A stretch of DNA of 64,000 nt. Source: Paeniglutamicibacter sulfureus (GTDB lineage Bacteria; Actinomycetota; Actinomycetes; Actinomycetales; Micrococcaceae). Made by a program: the position numbers and the translations under genes. This document shows, one piece after another, positions 3,926 to 16,873 of the stretch (position 1 is the stretch's first letter; each line of letters starts with the position of its first letter). The notes beneath the pieces are model-generated. The model was not told the DNA's origin and made no database searches. It saw nothing but the letters and a program-made list of their open reading frames with translations. The stretch covers positions 186,001 to 250,000 of the forward strand of contig NZ_JAULBL010000001.1 in the NCBI RefSeq assembly GCF_030512175.1. The letters are read 5' to 3'.

Positions 3926-5104
3926 CTAGCTGCTGTAGGCCGAATTCTCGTGGACGTAGTCGTGGGTCAGGTCGTTGGTCCACAGGCTGGCTTCCTGCAT
4001 GCCCGCGTTGAGGTCGATTTCCACCAGGACGTTGCGCCCGGAAAGGTCCACGAGGTTGCGGTCATCGCCCACCCCGCCCTTGCGGCATACCTGGACGCCG
4101 TTGATGGACACGTTCAGCTCGTCGGGCTCGAAGGCCGCCCGGGTGGTTCCCACCGCGGAAAGCACCCGGCCCCAGTTGGGGTCCTGGCCGAAGATCGCGG
4201 TCTTGAAGAGGTTGGACCGAGCCACAGTGCGCGAGACCTCGACTGCGTCGTCCTCGGTGGCGGCGTTGAAGGTGCGGATGGTGATTTCATGGGCGGCGCC
4301 CTCGGCATCGGAGATCAGCGCCTTGGCCAGCCCGACGCAGACCTCGGTGAGCCCGGCGGTGAATTCCGCGGTGTCCGGGACGGTTTCGCTGGCGCCGGAG
4401 GACATCAGGATCACGGTGTCGTTGGTTGACATGCAGCCGTCGGAATCCGCCCTGTCGAAGCTGACGCGGGTGGCCTCGCGCAGTGCGTCATCCAACTGCG
4501 CCGGTTCCAGCACCGCATCGGTGGTGATGACCACCAGCATCGTGGCCAGCCCGGGGGCAAGCATGCCTGCGCCCTTGGCCATGGCGCCGATGGAGTACCC
4601 GGATCCGGCGAACCCCGCCTGCTTGGACACCGTGTCGGTGGTCATGATGGCGGTGGCTGCAGCAGCTCCCCCGTCGAATTCATTGCCGGAGCCCAGTGCC
4701 GCGGCGGCCGCGTCCACGCCGGGCAGGATCTTGTCCATGGGCAGTTGCTCGCCGATCAGCCCGGTGGAGCAGACCAGCACGTCCCCGCTGGAAACGCCCA
4801 GGACCGTGGCCACGTGTTCGGCGGTGGCGTGGGTGTTGGCGAAGCCCTCGGGGCCGGTGCAGGCGTTGGCGCCGCCGGAGTTCAGCACCACGGCGTCGGC
4901 CCGGCCGTCGGAGATCACCTGGCGCGACCAGTGCACCGGGGCCGCCGCCACGCGGTTGGAGGTGAACACGGCTGCCGCGTCAAAGCGCGGGCCGTTGTTG
5001 CGCACCAGGGCAAGGTCCGGGTTTCCCGAGGCCTTGAGCCCGGCGGTGATACCCGAGGCGCTGAAGCCGCCGGGGTAGGTGATTCCCATGGGTGCGTTGC
5101 TCAC
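3926..5104 (-). CDS. argJ: bifunctional glutamate N-acetyltransferase / ornithine acetyltransferase
   Basis: Recycles the acetyl group from N-acetylornithine to glutamate, so the acetylated pathway runs as a cycle. The 392-residue precursor of this family self-cleaves before a threonine. The segment [14 protein letters not shown] (about residue 180) contains that nucleophile, splitting the chain into alpha and beta parts. The C-terminus [10 protein letters not shown] is the conserved end of the family. Start overlaps the argC stop by four bases. Whether it also makes N-acetylglutamate from acetyl-CoA cannot be told from sequence. Confidence 0.95.
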
Positions 5105-6132
5105 GGTGCTACTCCTTCAAGTGCCAGGCCGGCGGTTTCCTTCAGGCCCAGGGCGATGTTCATGGATTGGACGGCTCCGCCTGCGGTGCCCTTGGTGAGG
5201 TTGTCGATGACCGCGGAGACGATCACGCGGTTCGCGTGCGGGTCGAAGGCCAGCTGGATCTGCGCGTGGTTCGAGCCCATGACCGACGAGGTTGCGGGCC
5301 ACTGGCCTTCGGGCAGCAAATGCACGAATGGTTCGTCCTGGTAGGCAGCCGTCCACGCAGCGCGCAGCGTTGCCTCGTCCACACCGGGCTTGACCCTGGC
5401 GGTGGCGGTGGTGAGGATGCCGCGCGGCATCGGCGCCAGGGTCGGGGTGAAGGAGACAGTCACCGGGACGCCGGCGGCCTTGGAGAGACCTTGTTCCATT
5501 TCCGGGGTGTGGCGATGGGAGCCGCCCACGCCGTAGGGGTTCATGGAGCCCATGACCTCGGAGCCAATGAGGTTCACCTTGGCGCTCTTACCCGCTCCCG
5601 AGGTTCCGGAGGCGGAAACCACGACCACGTCGTCGGGTTCCAGGAGGTTGGCGGCGAATCCGGGCACGAGTGCCAGCTGGACCGAGGTCGGGTAGCATCC
5701 GGGCACCGCAATGCGCTTGGCGCCGACGAGCAGTTCCCGGGCTCCGGGCAGCTCCGGCAGGCCGTAGGGCCAGGTTCCGGCATGGGAGGAGCCGTAGAAC
5801 TTTTCCCAGGCCTCCGGGGATTCCAGGCGGTGGTCGGCCCCGGCGTCGATGACGAGGGTGTCGGCGGGTAGTTGGGCAGCGATCTCGGCGCTGGCACCGT
5901 GTGGCAGGGCCAGGAAGACGACGTCATGTCCGCGCAGTTGCTCGACCGTGGTTTCCACCAGGACCCTGTCGGCCAGCGAATGCAGGTGCGGGGCGAGCTC
6001 GCCCAGTCGCTGGCCGGCATTCGAGTGGGCGGTGATCGCACCGATGGTCACGTCGGGGTGGTTGGACAGCAGGCGCAGGACCTCGCCGCCGGCATACCCA
6101 CTGGCTCCGGATACAGCTACTGAAATCGTCAT
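5101..6132 (-). CDS. argC: N-acetyl-gamma-glutamyl-phosphate reductase
   Basis: NADPH-dependent reductase making N-acetylglutamate semialdehyde. The 343 residues open with the dinucleotide-binding loop GASGYAGGE. The catalytic cysteine lies in VPGCYPTS near residue 146, and the conserved histidine region [10 protein letters not shown] follows near residue 205. It is the first gene of the arginine operon. A weak purine-rich sequence (GTAGGGTTGGG) precedes the ATG. The ARG-box-like element 16-50 bases upstream probably controls the whole operon. Confidence 0.95.
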
Positions 6133-6285: not shown

Positions 6286-7254
6286 GTGAGTTCCCATGCA
6301 ATTATCGCCCGTCAGGCCGGAGGACCCGAAGTATTCGACTATGTTGCGTCGCCGATGCCCTCCCCCGGGCCCGGACAACTGCTGGTCAAGGTCGCTGCCG
6401 TTGGCGTGAATTTCATTGAGACGTACCAGCGCTCGGGCGTCTACAACGTCAAGTATCCCTTCACCCCGGGCAGCGAGTGCGCCGGCACCGTCGAGGCCGT
6501 TGGCGCCGGCGTCACCGATTTCGCCGTCGGGGACAGGGTGGCCACCACTGAAGGCTCGCGCACCTATGCCACCCACACGCTGCTGGATGCCGAGAAGGCA
6601 CTGCCCGTCCCGGAGAATGTGTCGCTGGAAACCGCCGGCGCGCTGCCGCTGCAGGGCATCACGGCGCACTACCTGGTCAATTCCAGCTACAACGTGCAGC
6701 AGGGCGACACCGTGCTCACCTATGCCGGCGCCGGTGGCGTCGGCCTGCTGTTGATCCAGCTGCTGAAGCTGCGCGGGGCCACCGTCATCACCACCACTTC
6801 GACTCCGGAAAAGGCGGAACTGGCGCGCGCCGCCGGCGCGGACCATGTCCTTTCCTACGACGAAGTGCCGGTGCGCGTCCGAGAAATCACCGGCGGCAAG
6901 GGCGTCGATGTCGTGTACGACGGCATCGGCAAGGACACCTTCGAAGGGTCACTCGAAGCCCTCAAGATCCGCGGCACCCTGGTGCTCTTTGGCGGAGCCT
7001 CGGGCCAGGTGCCGCCCTTTGACTTGCAGCGCCTCAACGCCCATGGTTCATTGACCGTGACCCGACCCAAGGTCGCCGACTTCCTGCTTGATGCAGAGGA
7101 GCGACGCTGGCGTTCCGGCGAGCTTTTTGAATTGGTCTCGCTCGGCAAGCTCGACGTCCGCATCGGGGCACGCTTCCCCCTGGCCGAGGCGGGCAACGCC
7201 CACACCGCCCTTGAATCCCGAGCGACCACCGGTAAAACCATCCTCATCCCGTAG
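6286..7254 (+). CDS. NADPH:quinone oxidoreductase, zinc-less MDR family
   Basis: Medium-chain dehydrogenase/reductase likely using NADPH to reduce quinones or similar electrophiles in the cytosol. From GTG 6286, placed eight bases after AAGGAG (6272-6277), it has 322 residues, the length of E. coli QorA. The Rossmann motif AGAGGVGLLLIQL is near residue 150 and the NADPH 2'-phosphate side segment TTTSTPEKAELA follows. The N-terminal GroES-like part carries no zinc-binding cysteine set. The open frame extends upstream to 6181, but that stretch lacks a ribosome-binding site. It is divergent from argC. Confidence 0.9.
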   Translation: MSSHAIIARQAGGPEVFDYVASPMPSPGPGQLLVKVAAVGVNFIETYQRSGVYNVKYPFTPGSECAGTVEAVGAGVTDFAVGDRVATTEGSRTYATHTLLDAEKALPVPENVSLETAGALPLQGITAHYLVNSSYNVQQGDTVLTYAGAGGVGLLLIQLLKLRGATVITTTSTPEKAELARAAGADHVLSYDEVPVRVREITGGKGVDVVYDGIGKDTFEGSLEALKIRGTLVLFGGASGQVPPFDLQRLNAHGSLTVTRPKVADFLLDAEERRWRSGELFELVSLGKLDVRIGARFPLAEAGNAHTALESRATTGKTILIP

Positions 7255-7282
7255 CCACGATCCAATCGTTGCCGAACCACCA

Positions 7283-7324
7283 CGGGCCGCCACCCCGGAG
7301 GACAGACTCCCACGTGGCGGCCCG
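7283..7324. terminator. inverted repeat between convergent genes
   Basis: Arms CGGGCCGCCAC (7283-7293) and GTGGCGGCCCG (7314-7324) form an 11-bp perfect stem around a 20-base loop, between the convergent oxidoreductase and DUF1990 genes. There is no U-tract, so terminator function is inferred from position only. Confidence 0.5.
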
Positions 7325-7434
7325 CGCCGTGCTTACCCGGAATCAGCGGCCGCCCGCTGATGCCCGAGTGTGTTCAGGAATCGGTTTTCATCCTCTGGCT
7401 GTTGTGGCCGCACCGCAATGCCTTGCCGAAGTCG

Positions 7435-7908
7435 TCAACGGAGTGCGCGCAGGTATCTCCGGCGTACGATTCGCTGCGCGACGAGAATCAACGGGTACAG
7501 CGCTCGCCACGGTTGCCGCGATGCCGCCCGGGTGAGGGATCGTATGGTGAGTCGCACGTCATCCCCGTGACGGCTCACGACAAATGCTTCCTCGCCGCAA
7601 ACGGGGTGCCCCGGCAGCGCGCGATACGCAAACCCGACCCGATCCGGGCTATCCACGACTGCGACAACTTCCACGGGCTCAAGGACGGTGGCACCGAAAA
7701 GGTGCACCGTGACGTCCACGCGGTCGCCCCGTCTCACCGGAGCAGCTGAACTCACCGTAAACCCGCTCGCTGTCTTCACCTTCCAGCGCAGCACGTCCGC
7801 GATGACGCGTTCCCACACCAGATCCCCGGTTCCAATGAACGACGAGAATTCCGAGCGACGATACTTACCGTCGCCCGGCGGCCAATGGGCAAGATCCGGA
7901 CTGGTCAC
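7435..7908 (-). CDS. DUF1990 (UPF0548) family protein
   Basis: A 157-residue cytosolic protein matching the DUF1990 pattern from memory: an N-terminal YRRSEFSSFIG region, a central WKVKTASGF block, then GFAYRALPGHPVCGEEAFVV with a conserved Gly-His-Pro and Glu-Glu pair, and an arginine-rich C-terminus. Function of the family is unknown. The start is GTG 7908 with GAGGAG eight bases upstream. It is transcribed toward the oxidoreductase, with a hairpin between the two. Confidence 0.75.
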   Translation of the reverse strand: MTSPDLAHWPPGDGKYRRSEFSSFIGTGDLVWERVIADVLRWKVKTASGFTVSSAAPVRRGDRVDVTVHLFGATVLEPVEVVAVVDSPDRVGFAYRALPGHPVCGEEAFVVSRHGDDVRLTIRSLTRAASRQPWRALYPLILVAQRIVRRRYLRALR

Positions 7909-8019
7909 GCGCCACTCTCCTCACAATCCAAACAGATGCCGGGCAAGTTGGGTCTGGGTCCATTCCTACTACAGTCCCGTACCCAAAAGAAGCCGCCCGT
8001 GGACAATCCCAACAGCAAA

Positions 8020-8817
8020 TCAGGCGATTCCCACCGCCCCACCTACTCGATTTTCCCAGGCCTCCGGGCCAGGGGCCCAAACGAGGCTGCCCACCAAATG
8101 GGGAGGAAGCATGGCACCCAGGGAGTCGAGGCTTTCTGGATCAAGATCCAGCACGCGGAGTCCGGGGCTGTGCAACAACGGGTGGACGTTTTTCCCGGCA
8201 ACCACGGGAATGCCGGCCTCACCGGCCAGGCCCTCCCCGCTGGCCTTGGCGACCGCTTCCTTCAGGGCCCACCATCTGGCCCGAAGCCGCTGCCGTTCGG
8301 ACTCCGGCAACAGTTCGAGTCGTTCTCGCTCTTCCCGCGCGTAGGCATAATCCTCGAGCATGCCGCCGTCTCCGGAGGAAAACGCGCTGTCGTCCAGGTC
8401 GGCCAGGTCAACGCCCAGCCGACTGTTCGCGGGGGCCAGCGCAAGCAGCAGCCAGCCAGCAGTCCGTGCGTAGGAGAGGGAAAAAGACTGCCCGGTCTTC
8501 GCCATCCGGAGCTTCGGGGTCCCGTGCGCCACCGACGCGCATTGCTGACAGTACTGTGTGAGTTCGAGGTCGCCGGGAAGGATCCCGCGGCCCGAAGGCA
8601 TCACACGGTTCAACAGGTCCGCAGCCAATACCCGGACAAGGATCCGTCCTGCCACAAAGTCGTCGCGCGGGCGTCCGGCAAGGTATGCGCCGGCGCGGGC
8701 GAGTTCGTCGGGCAGCAATCGGACCGCGGGATGCGTCGCGGCCTCCGCCAACGGGGCGGCCGCCCACAAAGGGGCCGAGAGTCCCGCTTCAGGACTCTTA
8801 CCCGGTACGTCGTGCAT
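8020..8817 (-). CDS. 4'-phosphopantetheinyl transferase, Sfp type
   Basis: Transfers phosphopantetheine from CoA to the serine of carrier domains. From ATG 8817 (AAGGAG ten bases upstream) it has 265 residues. The magnesium-binding motif GVDLADLD (near residue 138) and the signature WALKEAVAKASGEGL (near residue 190) are intact. It is the divergent neighbour of the Pls-type synthetase, whose carrier domain needs exactly this modification, so that is its likely substrate. The longer frame to 8862 has no ribosome-binding site. Confidence 0.9.
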   Translation of the reverse strand: MHDVPGKSPEAGLSAPLWAAAPLAEAATHPAVRLLPDELARAGAYLAGRPRDDFVAGRILVRVLAADLLNRVMPSGRGILPGDLELTQYCQQCASVAHGTPKLRMAKTGQSFSLSYARTAGWLLLALAPANSRLGVDLADLDDSAFSSGDGGMLEDYAYAREERERLELLPESERQRLRARWWALKEAVAKASGEGLAGEAGIPVVAGKNVHPLLHSPGLRVLDLDPESLDSLGAMLPPHLVGSLVWAPGPEAWENRVGGAVGIA

Positions 8818-9295
8818 TCGGATTGCGCTCCTTGTTCCGCGGGTCACTGGCCACGGATGCATGGCCGGTTCGACTGCATCGAGTATCTCGCATCAGCGCT
8901 GGAAGCCGGAACCAATTCCGATACACACAGTGGGCGCTGCGCCACATATTGGTTTGAGCTCCCGCGGCCGGCTTCAGCCCGACCGGCGCTCCTGCCCAGG
9001 CCCGGGCATTGGCCCCGCTGGCAGGGATCGCCGGATTCCCAAGCGGGTGGACGGCAGCTCCCTCCAACCAAGTTGGTGAGGCATCACACGGCCCTGTGAT
9101 TCCCGCCCCAAGACACCTCCCGTTAACCTCCCGGTCCACCTGCCGTTCACCTGCCGTGACTACGGTGGGCGCGTACGTGCCGGCCGGGCGGCGGCGGACG
9201 CCTTGTCGGCGTGCCGCCGGAGCATGGTTGGGCTCCATCGTCCTGGTCCGTCCCCTACAGGGGGCTGGGCCGAGCACCACTTCCAGAAAGCCACA
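8818..9295. other. divergent intergenic region between transferase and Pls-type synthetase
   Basis: About 480 bases without a convincing gene. It holds the PHO-box-like element described separately at 9122-9166. The remainder is GC-rich with no further clear signal. Confidence 0.5.
9122..9166 (+). promoter_or_regulatory. PHO-box-like direct repeats and -10 hexamer
   Basis: Three 11-base units lie in tandem: GTTAACCTCCC (9122-9132), GTCCACCTGCC (9134-9144) and GTTCACCTGCC (9145-9155). These match the actinobacterial PhoP direct-repeat consensus, which begins GTTCAYCT. Five bases later comes TACGGT (9161-9166), a plausible -10 hexamer. The layout implies a PhoP-activated promoter in which the repeats replace the -35 region, driving the Pls-type gene when phosphate is scarce. 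The repeats are visible; PhoP binding is inferred. Confidence 0.65.
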
Positions 9296-12200
9296 GTGGA
9301 AACGACTCCCAGCATTGCCGACAATGGATCCACCGCCCCCTTGTTCCTGCCGCAGTTCCCGGGCAGCGAATTGGCACCGAAGCCCCGCACCCTCATGGAC
9401 ATCCTTGAGGCCAGCGCGGCGGCCCACCCCGAAGCCCCCGCACTTGATGACGGCGAGCGCTCGCTGACCTACGCGGAACTGCTCGTGGCCGTCGACGAGA
9501 TGGCCGGGCGCCTGCGCGCAGCCGGACTCGGCGCCGGGGACCACATCGGCATCCGCATCCCCTCGGGAACGCGCGAACTCTACATCGGCATCCTGGCCAC
9601 GATGAGGATCGGCGCAGCCTACGTTCCCGTCGATGCCGACGATCCGGAGGAACGCGCCCAACTGGTCTTTTCCGAGGCCAAGGTCGCCGCGGTCGTGGGC
9701 GAAAAGGGCAAGATCACCTCCCTGCGCGAGACGGCAAACCCGGCGCCGGCCCGGGACGCCGCGCTGGGCGACGACGCCTGGATCATCTTCACCTCCGGAT
9801 CCACCGGGACTCCCAAGGGCGTTGCCATCACGCAGCGCTCGGCGGCCGCCTTCGTCGACGCCGAGGCCAGGATCTTCCTGACAAGTGAGCCCCTGGGCGC
9901 CGAGGACCGCGTGCTTGCCGGCCTGTCCGTGGCCTTCGATGCCTCCTGCGAGGAAATGTGGCTGGCCTGGCGCCATGCCGCCTGCCTGGTGCCGGCCCCG
10001 CGTGCCCTGGTTCGTTCGGGCATGGACCTGGGTCCCTGGCTGGTGACCCGCGGGGTCACCGTGGTCTCCACCGTCCCCACACTCGCCGCCCTCTGGCCGG
10101 CCGAGGCCCTGGAAAACGTGCGCCTGCTGATCTTCGGCGGCGAAGCCTGTCCGCCCGAGCTTGCCGCCCGCCTTGCGGTTCCAGGGCGCGAGGTCTGGAA
10201 CACCTATGGTCCGACCGAAGCGACCGTTGTGGCCTGTGCCGCGCAGATGGACGGCACGGATCCGGTGCGCATCGGCTTGCCGCTCGATGGCTGGGACCTT
10301 GCCGTCGTCGACGCCTCGGGCTTCCCCGTGGCCCCCGGTCAGAGCGGGGAACTGATCATCGGCGGCGTCGGACTCGGTCGCTACCTGGACCCGGCCAAGG
10401 ACGCCGAGAAATACGCGCCCTTCGAAACCCTGGGCTGGGAGCGCGCCTACCGCTCGGGTGACCTGGTGCAGGCCGACCCCGAGGGTCTGGTCTTCCTGGG
10501 CCGGATGGACGAACAGGTCAAGCTCGGCGGCCGACGCATCGAATTGGGCGAAATCGATGCCGCGCTCCAGTCCCTGCCCGAGGTCTCCGGCGCCGCGGCA
10601 GCGGTGAAGACCACCGCCGCCGGAAACCAGATCCTCGTCGGCTACCTGGCCGCCGATCCCGCCTACGACACCTCGGCTGCGCGCGGGCGGCTGGCGGACA
10701 TGCTTCCGGCGCCGCTGATCCCGCTGCTGGCAATCGTCGACGCCTTGCCCACCAAGACCAGCGGCAAGGTCGACCGCAACGCGCTGCCCTGGCCGTTGCC
10801 CGGAGCCACCGCCACCGGGCCCGAAGGGGTGCTGCCGGATCTCGGCCAGGACGCTGCATGGGTGATCGAGCAGTGGACCCGCGTGCTGGGGACCCCTGTC
10901 GGCAGCCTTGACACCGATTTCTTCGCCTCCGGCGGCGGTTCGCTCTCCGCCGCCCAGCTGGTCTCCGCCCTGCGCGTGCGCTACCGCACCGTCACGGTGG
11001 CCGAGATCTATTCCCACCCGCGCATCGGGTCCCTGCTCGAGGCCCTGGGCACCAGTTCCGGTGCCGAACCCGAGACCCGAATCGTCGAGCGCACCACCCG
11101 GCGCGCCCAGGTCTTCCAGACGCTGATGGGCATCCCCACCTTCATCCTGGTGGGCATGCGCTGGCTCGTGTACCTGGCCGCCGGCAACAACGTGCTCGGC
11201 GCCCTGGGGGTCTTCACCGACGCACCCAGGCTCTCCTGGTGGGCGGTGGCCGCCCTGTGGCTTGTCTTCGTCTCCTCCCCGGGGCGCATGGCGCTTTCGG
11301 TCATCGCGGCCCGGATGCTGCTGCGCAATCTCAAGCCCGGGAACTACCCGCGCTCGGGCAAGGTGCACCTGCGGCTGTGGATGGCCCAGCAGATCGCCGA
11401 TCTGGTTGATCCCGTCTCGCTCGGCAACGCGCACTGGATCCAGTTCTACGCCCGCGCCCTGGGCGCGAAGATCGGCGCCGACGTCCAGCTGCATTCGATC
11501 CCGCCGGTCACCGGCCTGCTCACCGTGGGCCGCGGCGCCAGCATCGAACCCGAGGTCGATCTCACCGGCTACTGGATCGACGGGGACCGTGTCCATGTGG
11601 GCACCGTCGAGGTCGGTGCCGAGGCCACGGTCGGGGCACGCAGCACGTTGATGCCCGGCTCCGTGGTCGCCGACGGGGTGGAGCTGGCAGCAGGCTCCGC
11701 CCTTGCCGGAAGCACCAAGGCCTTCTCCTCCTACTCCGGCTCCCCCGCAGAACGCAGCGGCAAGTCCAAGCCCTCCTGGCCGCAGGAGCCGTTGCGTACC
11801 CGCCGGGTGCGCAACGCGATGTTCGCCGTGGCCTCCTCGGCCCTGGGCGCAATTCCCCTGCTCTCCATCCTGGGAGCCATCATCGCCGCTGCCCTGCTGC
11901 TGCGCGGCCAGGCCTCGCTGCACGAATCCCTGCTCCGGCTCACGCTGGCCGTCCCGGTGGCGGCACTGGTGTGGTTCGGCCTGAACATGCTGCTGGTGCT
12001 GGTGGCCACGCGCCTGCTGGGAATTCGCCTGCGCGAGGGCTGGCACCGGGTCGACAGCAGGATCGGCTGGCAGGTCTGGGCCACCGAACGCCTGCTGGAC
12101 ATGGCCCGCGACCTCCTCTTCCCCATTTACGCCTCGCTCTTCACACCCGTGTGGCTGCGCCTGCTCGGCGCCAAGGTCGGACGCAACGTCGAGGCCTCCA

Positions 12201-13198
12201 CGGTGCTGCTGATCCCCAAGATGACCACCATCGGTGCCGGGGCCTTCCTGGCCGACGACACCATGGTCGCCACCTACGAACTCGGCGGCGGCTGGATGAA
12301 GGTGGGCCGAGCCAAGATCGGCAAACGCGCCTTCCTGGGCAACTCCGGCATCGCCGGAGCCGGGCGCCGCGTGCCGCGCAACGGCCTGGTCGCGGTGCTC
12401 TCGGCCACCCCCGCCAAGGCCAAGGCCGGGACCTCCTGGCTGGGCAGCCCGCCGGTGCGCCTGCGCCGCACCGCGGTGTCCTCCGACGATTTGCTCACCT
12501 ACGCGCCGCCGCTGCGCCTGAAGTTTGCCCGCGCCCTGTGGGAAATCTGCCGGATCGTGCCCGTCGTGGTCACCGTCGGCGTCGCCGCGCTGGTGCTGGC
12601 GCTGTTGGACTTCCTGGCCGCGGAATACGGCTATCTGGCCGCGGCACTGCTCAGCGGCGCGGTGATGCTTGCCGCAGGTGCCGTCGCGGCAACCTCCGCG
12701 GTCGTCGCCAAGTGGCTGCTGGTGGGCCCCATCCGCCCGGGCGAACACGCCCTGTGGAGCTCCTTTATCTGGCGCAACGAGGTAGTTGACACGTTCATCG
12801 AAATGGTCTGCGCTCCGTGGTTCGCCCACTCCGCCGCCGGCTCCCCGGCCCTGGTCTGGTGGCTGCGGGCCCTGGGCGCGAAGATCGGCCACGGCGTCTG
12901 GTGCGAAAGCTACTGGCTGCCCGAGGCCGACCTGGTCACCCTCGGGGACTCCTCGACCGTCAACCGCGGCACGGTGGTCCAGACCCACCTCTTCCACGAC
13001 CGGGTCATGGCAATTGATACGGTGGAACTCTCCGCTGGATCCACGATGGGCCCGCACGGGGTCATCCTGCCGGCAGCATCCCTGTCGGAAGGCGCCACCG
13101 TGGGCCCCGGTTCGCTGGTGATGCGCGGAGAATCCGTTCCCCCTTCAAGCTACTGGATGGGCAACCCCGTCCAACCCTGGAGCCAGCCGCGCGCATGA
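9296..13198 (+). CDS. poly-lysine-synthetase-like (Pls-type) non-ribosomal peptide synthetase
   Basis: Membrane-bound single-module synthetase of the Pls family (epsilon-poly-L-lysine synthetase is about 1,319 residues; this is 1,300). An adenylation domain fills residues 35-515, with A3 IIFTSGSTGTPKG near 165, A5 NTYGPTEATV near 303 and A10 lysine in PTKTSGKVDR. A carrier domain follows near 548 (FFASGGGSLS, serine for phosphopantetheine). Three pairs of membrane segments (about 615-680, 840-905, 1083-1148) then alternate with three hexapeptide-rich soluble domains (725-810, 955-1040, 1188-1298). There is no classical condensation or thioesterase domain, as in Pls. By-eye alignment with GrsA gives a specificity code DAESIGTVVK; the acidic third residue suits a cationic amino acid such as lysine. 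In-frame alternatives are ATG 9224 and TTG 9203. Confidence 0.85.
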   Translation: METTPSIADNGSTAPLFLPQFPGSELAPKPRTLMDILEASAAAHPEAPALDDGERSLTYAELLVAVDEMAGRLRAAGLGAGDHIGIRIPSGTRELYIGILATMRIGAAYVPVDADDPEERAQLVFSEAKVAAVVGEKGKITSLRETANPAPARDAALGDDAWIIFTSGSTGTPKGVAITQRSAAAFVDAEARIFLTSEPLGAEDRVLAGLSVAFDASCEEMWLAWRHAACLVPAPRALVRSGMDLGPWLVTRGVTVVSTVPTLAALWPAEALENVRLLIFGGEACPPELAARLAVPGREVWNTYGPTEATVVACAAQMDGTDPVRIGLPLDGWDLAVVDASGFPVAPGQSGELIIGGVGLGRYLDPAKDAEKYAPFETLGWERAYRSGDLVQADPEGLVFLGRMDEQVKLGGRRIELGEIDAALQSLPEVSGAAAAVKTTAAGNQILVGYLAADPAYDTSAARGRLADMLPAPLIPLLAIVDALPTKTSGKVDRNALPWPLPGATATGPEGVLPDLGQDAAWVIEQWTRVLGTPVGSLDTDFFASGGGSLSAAQLVSALRVRYRTVTVAEIYSHPRIGSLLEALGTSSGAEPETRIVERTTRRAQVFQTLMGIPTFILVGMRWLVYLAAGNNVLGALGVFTDAPRLSWWAVAALWLVFVSSPGRMALSVIAARMLLRNLKPGNYPRSGKVHLRLWMAQQIADLVDPVSLGNAHWIQFYARALGAKIGADVQLHSIPPVTGLLTVGRGASIEPEVDLTGYWIDGDRVHVGTVEVGAEATVGARSTLMPGSVVADGVELAAGSALAGSTKAFSSYSGSPAERSGKSKPSWPQEPLRTRRVRNAMFAVASSALGAIPLLSILGAIIAAALLLRGQASLHESLLRLTLAVPVAALVWFGLNMLLVLVATRLLGIRLREGWHRVDSRIGWQVWATERLLDMARDLLFPIYASLFTPVWLRLLGAKVGRNVEASTVLLIPKMTTIGAGAFLADDTMVATYELGGGWMKVGRAKIGKRAFLGNSGIAGAGRRVPRNGLVAVLSATPAKAKAGTSWLGSPPVRLRRTAVSSDDLLTYAPPLRLKFARALWEICRIVPVVVTVGVAALVLALLDFLAAEYGYLAAALLSGAVMLAAGAVAATSAVVAKWLLVGPIRPGEHALWSSFIWRNEVVDTFIEMVCAPWFAHSAAGSPALVWWLRALGAKIGHGVWCESYWLPEADLVTLGDSSTVNRGTVVQTHLFHDRVMAIDTVELSAGSTMGPHGVILPAASLSEGATVGPGSLVMRGESVPPSSYWMGNPVQPWSQPRA

Positions 13199-14604
13199 GC
13201 CACACCCAACAGACCGACACCTCCACCGCCGCCGAGGCTTCCTTCATCCCGGATGCCTATGTGCCCCGCTCCGGCAGCGCCGACTACCGTGTCACGCACT
13301 ACGACCTGGACCTGGACTGCAAGCTCGGGGGCAACCGGCTCGACGGCAGGGCCACCATCACCGCCGTGGCCCTGGTCGAGCTGCACCGCATCAGCCTGGA
13401 CCTGTCCGGGCTGCGGGCCTCCCGCTGCCAGGTCAACGGTGCCAAGGTGGCCCGGTCCACGCAGAAGGCCGGCAAGCTGGAGCTCCACCTGGTGACTCCG
13501 GTGCCCGCCGGGGAGCAGTTCACCGTGGAGATCCGCTACGGCGGGGTCCCGAATGTACGCGATGGCATCTGGGGCGAGGTCGGCTGGGAGGAACTCACCG
13601 ACGGGGTGCTCGTGGCCGGACAGCCCAACGGGGCCCCCACCTGGTTCCCCTGCAACGACCACCCCAGCCAAAAGGCAAGCTACAGGATCTCCGTCAACAC
13701 CGACGCCGGGTACCGCCCGGTCTGCAACGGAAAACTCGTTGACCGCCAGCGGCGCTCCAGCCGCGAACGTTGGACCTACGAGGTCAACGAGCCCATGGCC
13801 ACCTACCTGGCGACTATGCAGATCGGCCGCTACGAGCTGCGCTCCCTGGCCGGCACCGAAGCCGGTGCCGCACCGCTGGGCGGACGGCATGCAGGTGCCC
13901 CGGTCCCGGTGCCCCAGCTGGTTGCCTCGAACACCTCCCAGCTGCGCCGGGTCTCCTCCGCATTGGCCGATCAGCCCCGGATGATGGAAACCTTCATCGA
14001 GGCCTTCGGCCCCTACCCCTTCGAGGACTACACCGTGGTGGTCACGGAGGACGACCTGGAAATCCCGCTGGAGGCGCACGGGATTTCCATCTTGGGCAAC
14101 AACCACCTGCTCCCGGGATGGGAGCAGCAGCGATTGATCGCCCACGAGCTGTCCCACCAGTGGTTCGGGAACTCGCTGACCGTCGGGTCGTGGGAGGACA
14201 TCTGGCTGCATGAGGGCTTCGCCTGCTATGCCGAATGGATCTGGTCCGAGGCCTCCGGCGGCCCGAGCGCCGATTCACGCGCCAGGGACGCTTGGGCGAT
14301 GATTGAATCCCTGGAGCAGGACATCGCCATCGGGGCCCCCGGGCCCAAGGACATGTTCGACGACCGGGTCTACAAGCGCGGTGCGCTGACGCTGCACGCC
14401 CTGCGGCTGGCATCGGGCGATCGTGCGTTTTTCGCGATGTTGCGGGCCTGGACCGGGGCACGGCGCCACGGGACGGTCACCTACCGGCTCTTCCGGGACC
14501 ACGTGGACGCGCACCTGCCCACCGCACTCTCCGCCGAGGCGTTCCTGGAACCCTGGCTCTTTGAAAAGGCGTTGCCGGCACTGCCTGCCCCGGCGGCAAA
14601 CTGA
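13195..14604 (+). CDS. M1-family zinc metallopeptidase, short form
   Basis: Zinc aminopeptidase of family M1, 469 residues. It has the N-terminal beta domain and the catalytic domain, but lacks the long C-terminal helical domain of full-length (~850 residue) members. The zinc site is HELSHQW near residue 315 with the third ligand glutamate in WLHEGFACYAEW 19 residues later. The usual GAMEN substrate motif is replaced by IPLEAHG, keeping only the glutamate. No signal peptide is seen. Its ATG overlaps the synthetase stop by four bases, so the two are translated together. In poly-lysine producers a peptidase of this class degrades the polymer, so a processing or self-protection role is likely but unproven. 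Confidence 0.85.
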   Translation: MSHTQQTDTSTAAEASFIPDAYVPRSGSADYRVTHYDLDLDCKLGGNRLDGRATITAVALVELHRISLDLSGLRASRCQVNGAKVARSTQKAGKLELHLVTPVPAGEQFTVEIRYGGVPNVRDGIWGEVGWEELTDGVLVAGQPNGAPTWFPCNDHPSQKASYRISVNTDAGYRPVCNGKLVDRQRRSSRERWTYEVNEPMATYLATMQIGRYELRSLAGTEAGAAPLGGRHAGAPVPVPQLVASNTSQLRRVSSALADQPRMMETFIEAFGPYPFEDYTVVVTEDDLEIPLEAHGISILGNNHLLPGWEQQRLIAHELSHQWFGNSLTVGSWEDIWLHEGFACYAEWIWSEASGGPSADSRARDAWAMIESLEQDIAIGAPGPKDMFDDRVYKRGALTLHALRLASGDRAFFAMLRAWTGARRHGTVTYRLFRDHVDAHLPTALSAEAFLEPWLFEKALPALPAPAAN

Positions 14605-14624
14605 CAGCGGAGGGGGCTCGGCCC

Positions 14625-14647
14625 CACCGCCGTCGCGGTGCTCTTTT
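14625..14647 (+). terminator. intrinsic terminator after the Pls-M1 pair
   Basis: Stem CACCGC (14625-14630) with GCGGTG (14635-14640), loop CGTC, followed by CTCTTTT. It lies 21 bases after the peptidase stop. This separates the operon from ppk2, which then needs its own promoter. Confidence 0.75.
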
Positions 14648-14691
14648 CACCGTATAGAGCCTGGTCACAAACCCCCTTCCGGGCACCCAAT

Positions 14692-14724
14692 GTTCATCTT
14701 CCGTTCATGGCGCGCGGATACGGT
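14692..14724 (+). promoter_or_regulatory. PHO-box-like direct repeat and -10 hexamer in front of ppk2
   Basis: Two 11-base units, GTTCATCTTCC (14692-14702) and GTTCATGGCGC (14703-14713), are followed five bases later by TACGGT (14719-14724). The spacing and hexamer are identical to those in front of the Pls-type gene. Transcription starting about seven bases past the hexamer would begin at or next to the ATG at 14732, giving a leaderless mRNA; no Shine-Dalgarno sequence is present. Confidence 0.7.
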
Positions 14725-14731
14725 CAACCCC

Positions 14732-15616
14732 ATGCAATTGCTTGATTTGGCCGCCCACGGCTACTCCGTCCGCGACGACGACGATGACGACCCGGTGCTG
14801 TTGACCTCCACCGGCGAAGTCGTGGACACCTGGCGGGAGGGCTACCCGTACTCCTCGCGCATGGACCGTGCCCAGTACGACCTGGAAAAGCGGCTGTTGC
14901 AGATCGAGCTGCTCAAGCTGCAGGTCTGGGTCAAAGCCACCGGGCGCCGACTCGTGGTGCTCTTCGAGGGCCGCGACGCCGCCGGCAAGGGCGGGACCAT
15001 CAAGAGGTTCACCGAGCATTTGAACCCGCGCGGGGCCCGCGTCGTGGCGTTGGAAAAGCCCAGTGAACGCGAATCCACCCAGTGGTTCTTCCAGCGCTAC
15101 ATCGCCCACCTGCCGGCCGCCGGGGAAATGGTCCTCTTCGACCGCTCCTGGTACAACCGTTCCGGCGTCGAACGCGTGATGCGCTTCTGCACCCGGGAGC
15201 AATTCGACAGGTTCATGCACCAGGCACCTGCTTTCGAGCGGCAGCTGGTTGATGACGGGATCGTTCTAGTGAAGTTCTGGTTCTCGGTTTCCCGCCGCGA
15301 ACAGCTCACCCGCTTCACCATCCGCCAGATCGACCCGGTTCGGCAGTGGAAGCTTTCCCCCACCGACCTCGCCTCTCTGGACAAGTGGGACGCCTACACC
15401 GAGGCCAAGGAAGAGACCTTCCGCAGCACCGATACCGATTGGGCACCGTGGACCGTGGTGAAGTCCAATGACAAGAAGCGCGCCAGGCTCGAGGCAATGC
15501 GCCACGTGCTGAGCCTCTTCGACTACGAAGGCAAGGATCACGAGCTCGTGGGGACCCCCGACCCGCACATCGTCGGACCCGCCTCGGCAGTCGTCGCCGA
15601 CGGTGAGGAATTCTAG
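14732..15616 (+). CDS. ppk2: polyphosphate kinase 2
   Basis: P-loop kinase that moves phosphate between polyphosphate and nucleoside di- or triphosphates. From ATG 14732 it has 294 residues. Walker A is FEGRDAAGKGG near residue 80 and Walker B FDRSWYNRSGVERVM near residue 136, with the conserved KFWFSVSRREQ further on. The length and single domain fit the one-domain PPK2 class. The N-terminus has a run of six aspartates (residues 16-21). Upstream in-frame sequence overlaps the terminator and PHO box, so is not coding. Placement behind a PHO box links it to phosphate starvation. Confidence 0.92.
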   Translation: MQLLDLAAHGYSVRDDDDDDPVLLTSTGEVVDTWREGYPYSSRMDRAQYDLEKRLLQIELLKLQVWVKATGRRLVVLFEGRDAAGKGGTIKRFTEHLNPRGARVVALEKPSERESTQWFFQRYIAHLPAAGEMVLFDRSWYNRSGVERVMRFCTREQFDRFMHQAPAFERQLVDDGIVLVKFWFSVSRREQLTRFTIRQIDPVRQWKLSPTDLASLDKWDAYTEAKEETFRSTDTDWAPWTVVKSNDKKRARLEAMRHVLSLFDYEGKDHELVGTPDPHIVGPASAVVADGEEF

Positions 15617-15821
15617 GGTTCGGTTTCCCCCGCTGGGATGCGGCGCTGGACTGCGATTCGTGTGCGGTAAGAAGCGCCCTCGGTGGTCCGGTCCCGCGTG
15701 ACCCCGTATTTTCCTGCGAATCAGAACTTCTCAAGTATCAGGCCCTTGAGGGTTCGGTTCCGTTATCCGAATCCCAAGGGAGTTCTTGGTTCCCACTTGC
15801 CGAAGCTTGAGAGAATTACCG

Positions 15822-16523
15822 TCATTTCGCACGCAGCACGAAGAAAATAAAGCTCAAGAACGATTCCCTGCCTTCGAATTGAGGCGGGATGAGTTCCGGG
15901 GGCGCATCGGCAGAGAAAGGTGGTTCACTGACTACCTCGATCTGGAATCCGGCCTTGGCAAATGCGTCCGTCATTTCGTGCAATGGTCGATGCCAATATG
16001 TGAGGATCGCCGGTTGGCCATTGAACGTGTGCTCATCTGAATACTTCGTGAGCTTGAAGTAGTCGGAACCGGGGTTGGTCCATGGGTAGAGGATCGGATG
16101 GTTGACAGACATGATGAGTCGGCCTCCGGGTCGCAGTACTCGCCGTATCTCCTGTAGCGGACTCAGCCAGTCTTGCAAATAGTGAAAAACCAGCGAGGAA
16201 ACCACGTCATCGAACGTTTCCTCGGCGAATGGCAGCGGCTGGCCGAGGTCGGTTGTCAGCAGATCTGCTTCCGCACCAAGTCTTTTCCGGGCAAGGCTGA
16301 TCATTGCTTCACTGGAGTCAAATCCTGTCACGCTGGCGCCGCGATCACGGAGCGCCTTCGTCAGCGGCCCGGAACCGCAGCCAGCATCTAGAATTCGACG
16401 ATTACGGACATCCCCTGCGAGTTTTATCATCGCCGGCCGTTCGTAGAATCCATTGATCAGACTGGTTTCATTTTCAGTCGAGTACGCTTCGGCAAAGCTG
16501 TCGTAATCGGTGTCCTGCGTCAT
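15822..16523 (-). CDS. class I SAM-dependent methyltransferase
   Basis: A 233-residue methyltransferase of the Methyltransf_11/25 type acting on an unknown small molecule. SAM motif I is RILDAGCGSGPLTKA near residue 44, followed by the acidic residue in VTGFDSS. Motif post II is PFAEETFDDVVSSLVFHY near residue 100 and a VLRPGGRLIMSV block follows. The N-terminal DYDSFAEAYSTENE is typical of the family. The gene is clearly richer in A and T than its neighbours, which suggests recent acquisition. No operon partner. Confidence 0.85.
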   Translation of the reverse strand: MTQDTDYDSFAEAYSTENETSLINGFYERPAMIKLAGDVRNRRILDAGCGSGPLTKALRDRGASVTGFDSSEAMISLARKRLGAEADLLTTDLGQPLPFAEETFDDVVSSLVFHYLQDWLSPLQEIRRVLRPGGRLIMSVNHPILYPWTNPGSDYFKLTKYSDEHTFNGQPAILTYWHRPLHEMTDAFAKAGFQIEVVSEPPFSADAPPELIPPQFEGRESFLSFIFFVLRAK

Positions 16524-16873
16524 AAACCAATTCCTCCGGACCTCAGAATGGGGGGCTCATTTATATGAGGCTAACAGCCTTCCCGCATTCCCACGGATAA
16601 TAATAGAAACGACACACTCACCCGAAATTAAGCTTTCGGGACGATCCTCTTTCAATATTCTGAAAGTCCAATTCCTCCCACTGGTTCCCATTAGCAGGAC
16701 GGCCATGGCGCATGACCGGGTTCCTTGCGACACCGTGATTCGGCGGATGGACCATGACACGACAGCAACGCCGTCGTCTCCGGTTCGTCCCGGCCTGGTC
16801 GGTGATCCCCGATTCCGCCGGACCCTCCCCGTGCCAGTCGTCAAGTCAATTTGCGAAGAGTCTCATCATCTCG
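16524..16873. other. AT-richer intergenic stretch with two small hairpins
   Basis: No convincing gene in 350 bases. Two short perfect dyads are visible: CCCGAAA / TTTCGGG (16621-16627 with 16634-16640) and TTTCA / TGAAA (16650-16654 with 16661-16665). They lie downstream of the minus-strand gene ending at 16874 and might terminate it. Confidence 0.4.

Follow-up and report, generated by a model that had tools for sequence, protein, structure and literature searches.

A 64-kb stretch of the Paeniglutamicibacter sulfureus genome (64,000 nucleotides of contig NZ_JAULBL010000001.1, positions 186,001 to 250,000; hereafter the window, with coordinates counted from its first base) carries a gene for an epsilon-poly-L-lysine synthetase-type protein (pls), an M1-family peptidase gene directly downstream, and a gene for a class I polyphosphate kinase 2 (ppk2). 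Two promoters of the phosphate regulon (Pho) type, alike in design, precede pls and ppk2, and both sites are real, well beyond chance. Reading from sequence the promoter elements, their geometry and conservation, the gene families and the regulator genes, we consider it likely that the pls-peptidase pair and ppk2 are Pho-regulon units that would be induced by phosphate starvation from genuine Pho promoters; PPK2 may supply ATP used by Pls. The promoter type is known; the targets pls and ppk2 are new and conserved, and belong to a linked gene module.

The PHO box of pls consists of GTCCACCTGCC (9134-9144) and GTTCACCTGCC (9145-9155) on the plus strand, followed after five bases by the -10 element TACGGT (9161-9166, plus strand) at a conserved spacing, with transcription predicted to start near 9173. 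The plus-strand PHO box of ppk2, GTTCATCTTCC (14692-14702) and GTTCATGGCGC (14703-14713), is kept in relatives and is likewise followed after five bases by TACGGT (14719-14724, plus strand); because this hexamer lies only seven bases 5′ of the ATG, the ppk2 mRNA is probably leaderless. Direct reading thus confirmed an earlier note on this DNA, which had described 11-base repeats, five bases and TACGGT in front of both genes. The same note had counted three repeat units at pls; two of these, at 9134-9155, are in register, but the outermost GTTAACCTCCC unit (9122-9132, plus strand) lies 12 rather than 11 nucleotides from the next, one base off register, on direct reading. Three units at 11-base spacing were found in two loci of the same genus (L040 and L041). 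Hexamers at the -10 place vary among relatives (TACGGT, TAGGTT, TACGCT, TAATGT, TAGCCT and others), and, judging from this variety, position is more telling than hexamer identity. Own-genus pls transcripts have a predicted leader of ∼120 nucleotides (9167-9295 in the window) with a conserved GCGTACGTGCCGGCCGGG-like start; the pls -10 element of several other genera has a GTG almost immediately behind it. A known structured RNA was rejected for positions 7000-16600, where no Rfam family reached its gathering score.

A box matrix of 22 columns was built from the upstream regions of pstS, with no pls or ppk2 sequences; 23 of 33 upstreams, from 18 genera, contributed, the own genome supplying three sites, and the other ten were dropped for want of a site at a consensus score of at least 10. 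Across both strands of the window, the two best matches were 9134 (plus strand, 21.7 bits) and 14692 (plus strand, 15.6 bits), followed by one at 12.4 bits, which is also the maximum in the reversed window used as a control. With a -10 term added, the pls and ppk2 sites scored 27.6 and 21.6, against 8.1 for the next site in the window and 10.7 for the reversed control. With the box matrix, 240 tiles taken from within pls genes all stayed below 10 bits. In the 4.55-Mb genome, the plain pattern GTTCA-N6-GTTCA-N11-TANNNT has one exact match, at ppk2, and three matches with one mismatch, one of these at pls. Three further sites in the genome (L012, L014 and L018; 15.0, 16.4 and 17.6 bits) stand near frames that by eye are lipoprotein-like, unassigned and GntR-like, respectively, and are candidates for more Pho genes.

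No matrix column covers the -10 region, and the distance from half-site to -10 was compared over offsets 18 to 44 in the boxed upstreams: 54 of 165 for pls outside the genus (the 111 without a usable plus-strand match of 8 bits being left out), 9 of 9 inside it, and 24 for ppk2. NANNNT stood at offset 27 in 32 of the 54, six of the nine and 17 of the 24, respectively, with at most six at each other offset; among these offset-27 cases, the stricter TANNNT was present in 9 of 32, 6 of 6 and 17 of 17. For pstS, 22 of the 25 boxed upstreams (8 of the 33, below 8 bits, were left out) instead had TANNNT at offset 49; in this layout the repeats stand at 0 and +11, and another half-site, placed by eye, is at +33. 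The offset is 49 rather than 27 because of this extra half-site, and the last half-site is again 16 nucleotides from the -10. Both window sites therefore combine 11-bp direct repeats matching the pstS promoter motif with a -10 hexamer at the pstS distance, so the five-base gap is meaningful and the design follows the rule for Pho promoters in this group.

Conservation was assessed in a survey of 148 genomes (own included). Of these, 52 carried a pls belonging to the set, and for ppk2 the top match of each genome was entered. This set omits second pls copies as well as Pls-like best matches that were of lower identity, broken or partial (G005, G018, G048, G054, G061, G072, G078, G098, G135 and weaker ones). 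With 200 shuffles each (p-value floor 0.005), p ≤ 0.05 was reached with the box matrix by 29 of the 52 upstreams of pls and by 26 of the 30 of ppk2. A wider set held 174 pls upstreams after removal of 13 near-identical ones from 187 (floor about 0.01); here 57 reached 10 bits, compared with 1.05% of shuffles and 0.97% of 1540 flank tiles from the named loci. Significant boxes by named genus were found in Rhodococcus (6/10), Nocardia (5/13), Arthrobacter (8/13) and Pseudarthrobacter (4/4). Joining the box matrix to a -10 matrix, both from pstS (floor 0.005), gave p ≤ 0.05 in 26 of 30 ppk2 and 81 of 174 pls upstreams; by hand-assigned clade, the latter comprised 9/9 of the own genus, 33/55 other Micrococcaceae-like, 5/11 from other families of the order, 23/64 Mycobacteriales and 11/16 other actinobacteria. 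Examples are the pls promoters of Plantibacter (GTTCACCGGCC GTCCACCTGCG CTCCC TAGCGT), Brevibacterium jeotgali (CGACACCCTCC GTTCACCTGCT GCGGC TATCAT) and Rhodococcus sp. BP22 (GTTCACCTTCC GGCCACCCGAA CATGA GATAAC). Nine lower-identity Pls-like copies (L149-L157) had best consensus matches of 7 to 9 of 12.

The products of the two genes fit the earlier note's pairing of a Pls-type polycation synthetase with a polyphosphate gene. pls (9296-13198, plus strand, 1300 amino acids, GTG start) exceeds the TIGR02353 cut-off (690.8 bits against 423.1), and its closest match in PDB is the epsilon-poly-L-lysine synthase 7wew (658 bits). A longer frame starts with TTG at 9203; the GTG at 9296 is the most likely start, since AGAAAG plus GTG is kept in 9/9 own-genus loci. 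The A, T and Pls/PosA terminal domains were over cut-off (PF00501, PF00550, TIGR02353), and the Pfam matches included no condensation domain. At the positions we take to form the substrate pocket, by analogy with GrsA, the segments FDASCEEMW, VVSTVPT, LLI-GGE and NTYGPTE-TVVACA agree with the lysine pocket of 7wew, and the product is probably epsilon-poly-L-lysine. ppk2 (14732-15616, plus strand, 294 amino acids) matches TIGR03707 at 374 bits (cut-off 301.8) and the Francisella tularensis PPK2 structures 5ll0 and 4yeg at about 364 bits, with the FDRSWYNR motif in common. By the residue rule for PPK2 classes given in a passage of PMC8776046, the Asn after Walker B, in the FDRSWYN shared with the class I F. 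tularensis enzyme, places it in class I. A ppk1 gene is also present in the genome; a PHO box before it was rejected, the best site scoring 6.8 bits in the 1500 nucleotides before the match and 0.5 in the nearest 600, though the ppk1 frame is longer than the match and its promoter may lie elsewhere.

The gene between them (13195-14604, plus strand; PF01433 at 82.1 bits, PF17900) overlaps pls by 4 nucleotides and encodes an M1-family peptidase resembling PldII, which we take to be an M1 peptidase; a homologue follows pls in all 30 loci compared, the own one among them. Divergent from pls lies a gene for a 4′-phosphopantetheinyl transferase (PPTase; 8020-8862, minus strand; PF01648 at 33.7 bits, cut-off 25), predicted to activate Pls at its T domain. 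Additional synthetases were seen elsewhere: this genome encodes another, distant Pls-like synthetase (G000:C1:376655-380530, L158), 31% identical to pls, a second pls-like gene in a genome of the same genus (G011:C67:26130-29960, L152) is 50% identical and divergent from the first, and pls homologues occur in 226 of 251 genomes of a family, G184, that appears to be Mycobacteriaceae-like.

The order pls, M1 peptidase gene, ppk2 on one strand, with ppk2 at most 8 kb downstream, was found in 20 of the 52 pls genomes, spanning 10 genera; second ppk2 matches, by inspection, lie more than 8 kb away or on other contigs. Of 30 ppk2 genes with a locus, 19 are linked, and these nearly make up a single lineage, with 2 label changes where shuffling gives 9.2; one long-branched unlinked ppk2 row lies inside it. 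All 19 linked ppk2 upstreams had p ≤ 0.025 with the box matrix and 18 had p = 0.005 with the joint model, by which the pls upstream was also significant in 13 of the 20 linked genomes. Six of nine linked loci from other genera contain, in the interval separating the peptidase gene from ppk2, a PPTase gene in opposite orientation (Pfam family ACPS, with five exceeding the cut-off); at the remaining three, there is a GPP34-family gene instead (L296, G042), no room, or no Pfam match. Of the named loci with ppk2 in the flank, L160 (Arthrobacter sp. C2) and L161 (Paeniglutamicibacter terrestris) belong to the same genus and have ppk2 arranged as in the window. In L179 (Arthrobacter rhizosphaerae) and L183 (an Arthrobacter metagenome-assembled genome), ppk2, preceded by a single Pho-type promoter, is directly upstream of pls on the same strand (about 5066-6020) and its frame extends beyond the point where the pls match begins; here the two genes almost certainly form one transcript.

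Several observations weigh against Pho control of a common pls-ppk2 locus. The seed sites of the matrix (23 of 33 pstS upstreams, ten being dropped) were chosen by their GTTCAC consensus, and at two mismatches the plain GTTCA pattern gave 24 matches genome-wide against 19 in the control, so that it was rejected as genome-wide evidence, being too weak alone. No significant joint site was found in 93 of 174 pls upstreams, including all four of f21 (probably Streptomycetaceae) and all 15 of g261 (probably Corynebacterium), and a significant pls box was found in none of five Mycolicibacterium and none of three Tsukamurella. The best ppk2 lies elsewhere in 25 of the 52 pls genomes and was not found in seven, and ppk2 is within the flank of only four of 80 named pls loci (L160, L161, L179 and L183). 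In five of nine linked genera other than the own (g30, g27, g26, g9 and g23), the ppk2 site is significant and the pls site is not, a finding that restricts how far co-regulation can be claimed; in g23, the genome G085 shows a weak pls box match on the minus strand (p = 0.040). Additionally, opposite-strand PHO-type boxes stand 5′ of pls in L136, L138, L139, L141 and L143, from other genera (13.2 to 31.7 bits). Class I PPK2 enzymes of Pseudomonas aeruginosa and Corynebacterium glutamicum differ in direction, and that of C. glutamicum favours polyphosphate synthesis, according to the portion of PMC8776046 consulted, so the PPK2 described here may run either way.

The strongest alternative, a serious one though in our view short of even odds, is that pls and ppk2 both belong to the Pho regulon as independent neighbours, with no functional link between polylysine and polyphosphate. 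The genomes with ppk2 elsewhere or absent and the five linked genera with no significant pls site agree with this, as do unlinked ppk2 genes that have significant joint sites of their own (e.g., L090, L093, L095 and L097). Linkage, however, persists across 10 genera even as the position of the PPTase gene shifts, the linked ppk2 genes are nearly one lineage, and ppk2 and pls form one overlapping unit in the two Arthrobacter loci. The single co-regulated locus of the earlier note was borne out in part, as to two Pho promoters and a linkage spanning 10 genera, and was narrowed by the genera in which the pls site lacks significance and by those genomes in which ppk2 lies elsewhere or was not found.

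The genome encodes a fitting regulator. A phoU gene is over cut-off. Divergent from it lie genes for a SenX3-type histidine kinase and for a response regulator that, in the PDB, is matched best by RegX3 (2oqr, 354 bits; MtrA, 187); the NCBIfam PhoB and PhoR models match this regulator and kinase below their cut-offs. RegX3 is the counterpart of streptomycete PhoP. The shared PhoP regulon proposed in the earlier note thus stands as regards two Pho-type promoters of one design, but the regulator is better called RegX3. Another regulator of the OmpR family (MtrA, GlnR or AfsR type) might use the repeats, alone or in competition with RegX3; such regulators overlap PhoP sites in Streptomyces, and the Nocardia pls sites (GTTTGCC/GGTAACC) are further from the pstS consensus. 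We regard this as improbable, because the pstS-derived matrix and the spacing rule fit both window sites. Less probable again is that the boxes repress, with RegX3/PhoP bound there blocking pls: PhoP represses some Streptomyces secondary metabolite genes, and a few loci have the opposite-strand boxes described above. Against repression, the distance from the last half-site to the -10 equals that of pstS, which is PhoP-activated in Streptomyces according to the part of PMC7866108 consulted. Chance resemblance in GC-rich DNA, to which the 24 against 19 genome-wide matches of the plain pattern would lend some colour, is rejected as extremely improbable by the window ranking, the shuffle and tile rates, the peaked -10 offset, and the joint sites of 9/9 own-genus pls and 26/30 ppk2 loci.

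Under the favoured explanation, Pho induction of both units, phosphate shortage would lead the SenX3-RegX3 (PhoR-PhoP type) system to phosphorylate RegX3, which would bind the 11-bp direct repeats in tandem, replacing a -35 element, and set RNA polymerase on the -10 hexamer, 16 nucleotides from the start of the last half-site. Two transcripts would be switched on, one of pls and the M1 peptidase gene and one, probably leaderless, of ppk2. Pls, activated by the neighbouring PPTase, would polymerise L-lysine to epsilon-poly-L-lysine, which the peptidase would degrade at the cell, and the class I PPK2 would form nucleoside triphosphates, including ATP used by Pls, at the expense of stored polyphosphate. 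Here we infer activation as the direction of control, phosphate as the signal, the product, and the energetic coupling of PPK2 to Pls. Mutual binding of polycation and polyphosphate, also raised in the earlier note, is chemically possible.

Several known systems resemble parts of this arrangement. In the Streptomyces PhoR-PhoP regulon, as covered by the excerpt of PMC7866108 available, 11-nucleotide direct repeats likewise precede phosphate genes, and both pstS and the polyphosphate kinase gene ppk carry PHO boxes; the Streptomyces kinase gene, however, is ppk and is linked with pstSCAB, in place of the ppk2 beside pls found here. The pls-pldII operon of S. albulus similarly has a synthetase gene followed by a degradase gene with a 4-nucleotide overlap, but pls is induced below a medium pH of 5, with the sigma factor HrdD binding the pls promoter (PMC4361855, in part); the four f21 loci, unlike the window, have a pls with no significant site. 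A silent epsilon-poly-L-lysine synthetase gene in Corynebacterium variabile also forms an operon of Pls and peptidase, and, in the sections of PMC8117764 consulted, coryneform pls genes are described as widespread, at least one being silent in culture, their Pls is predicted to use lysine, and the authors propose a trigger signal of unknown nature. Unlike the window, the 15 g261 loci have no significant GTTCAC-type box, and phosphate as the trigger of the silent C. variabile gene is unsupported (0/15 boxes among these probable Corynebacterium loci, C. variabile itself lying outside the set). In engineered S. albulus, PPK2 genes raised epsilon-poly-L-lysine and ATP (PMC10012588, in part), in agreement with the supply of ATP to Pls that we infer for PPK2; both cases bring PPK2 and Pls into one cell, by hand there and here as natural neighbours with like promoters. 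Among the matches listed from open-licence literature on Pls or polylysine and Pho control or polyphosphate, and on PPK2 and Pho control, none reported a PHO box in front of pls; in the part of PMC9195005 consulted, the one passage naming PhoP belongs to the references.

If the favoured explanation is true, a polycation synthetase and a PPK2 would be added to the Pho regulon, and the locus would be a natural counterpart of the engineered pairing of PPK2 and Pls. More tentatively, and in our judgement with less than even probability, polylysine may be, in many non-streptomycete actinobacteria, a phosphate-starvation weapon paid for by polyphosphate, with a Pho module making the polycation, its peptidase and an ATP-yielding PPK2. 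The conserved Pho promoter makes low-phosphate growth a concrete and cheap test for strains with a box-carrying pls, and low phosphate would, if the more tentative reading holds, be the signal so far lacking for many pls genes that go unexpressed in Arthrobacter-like and Rhodococcus-like bacteria.

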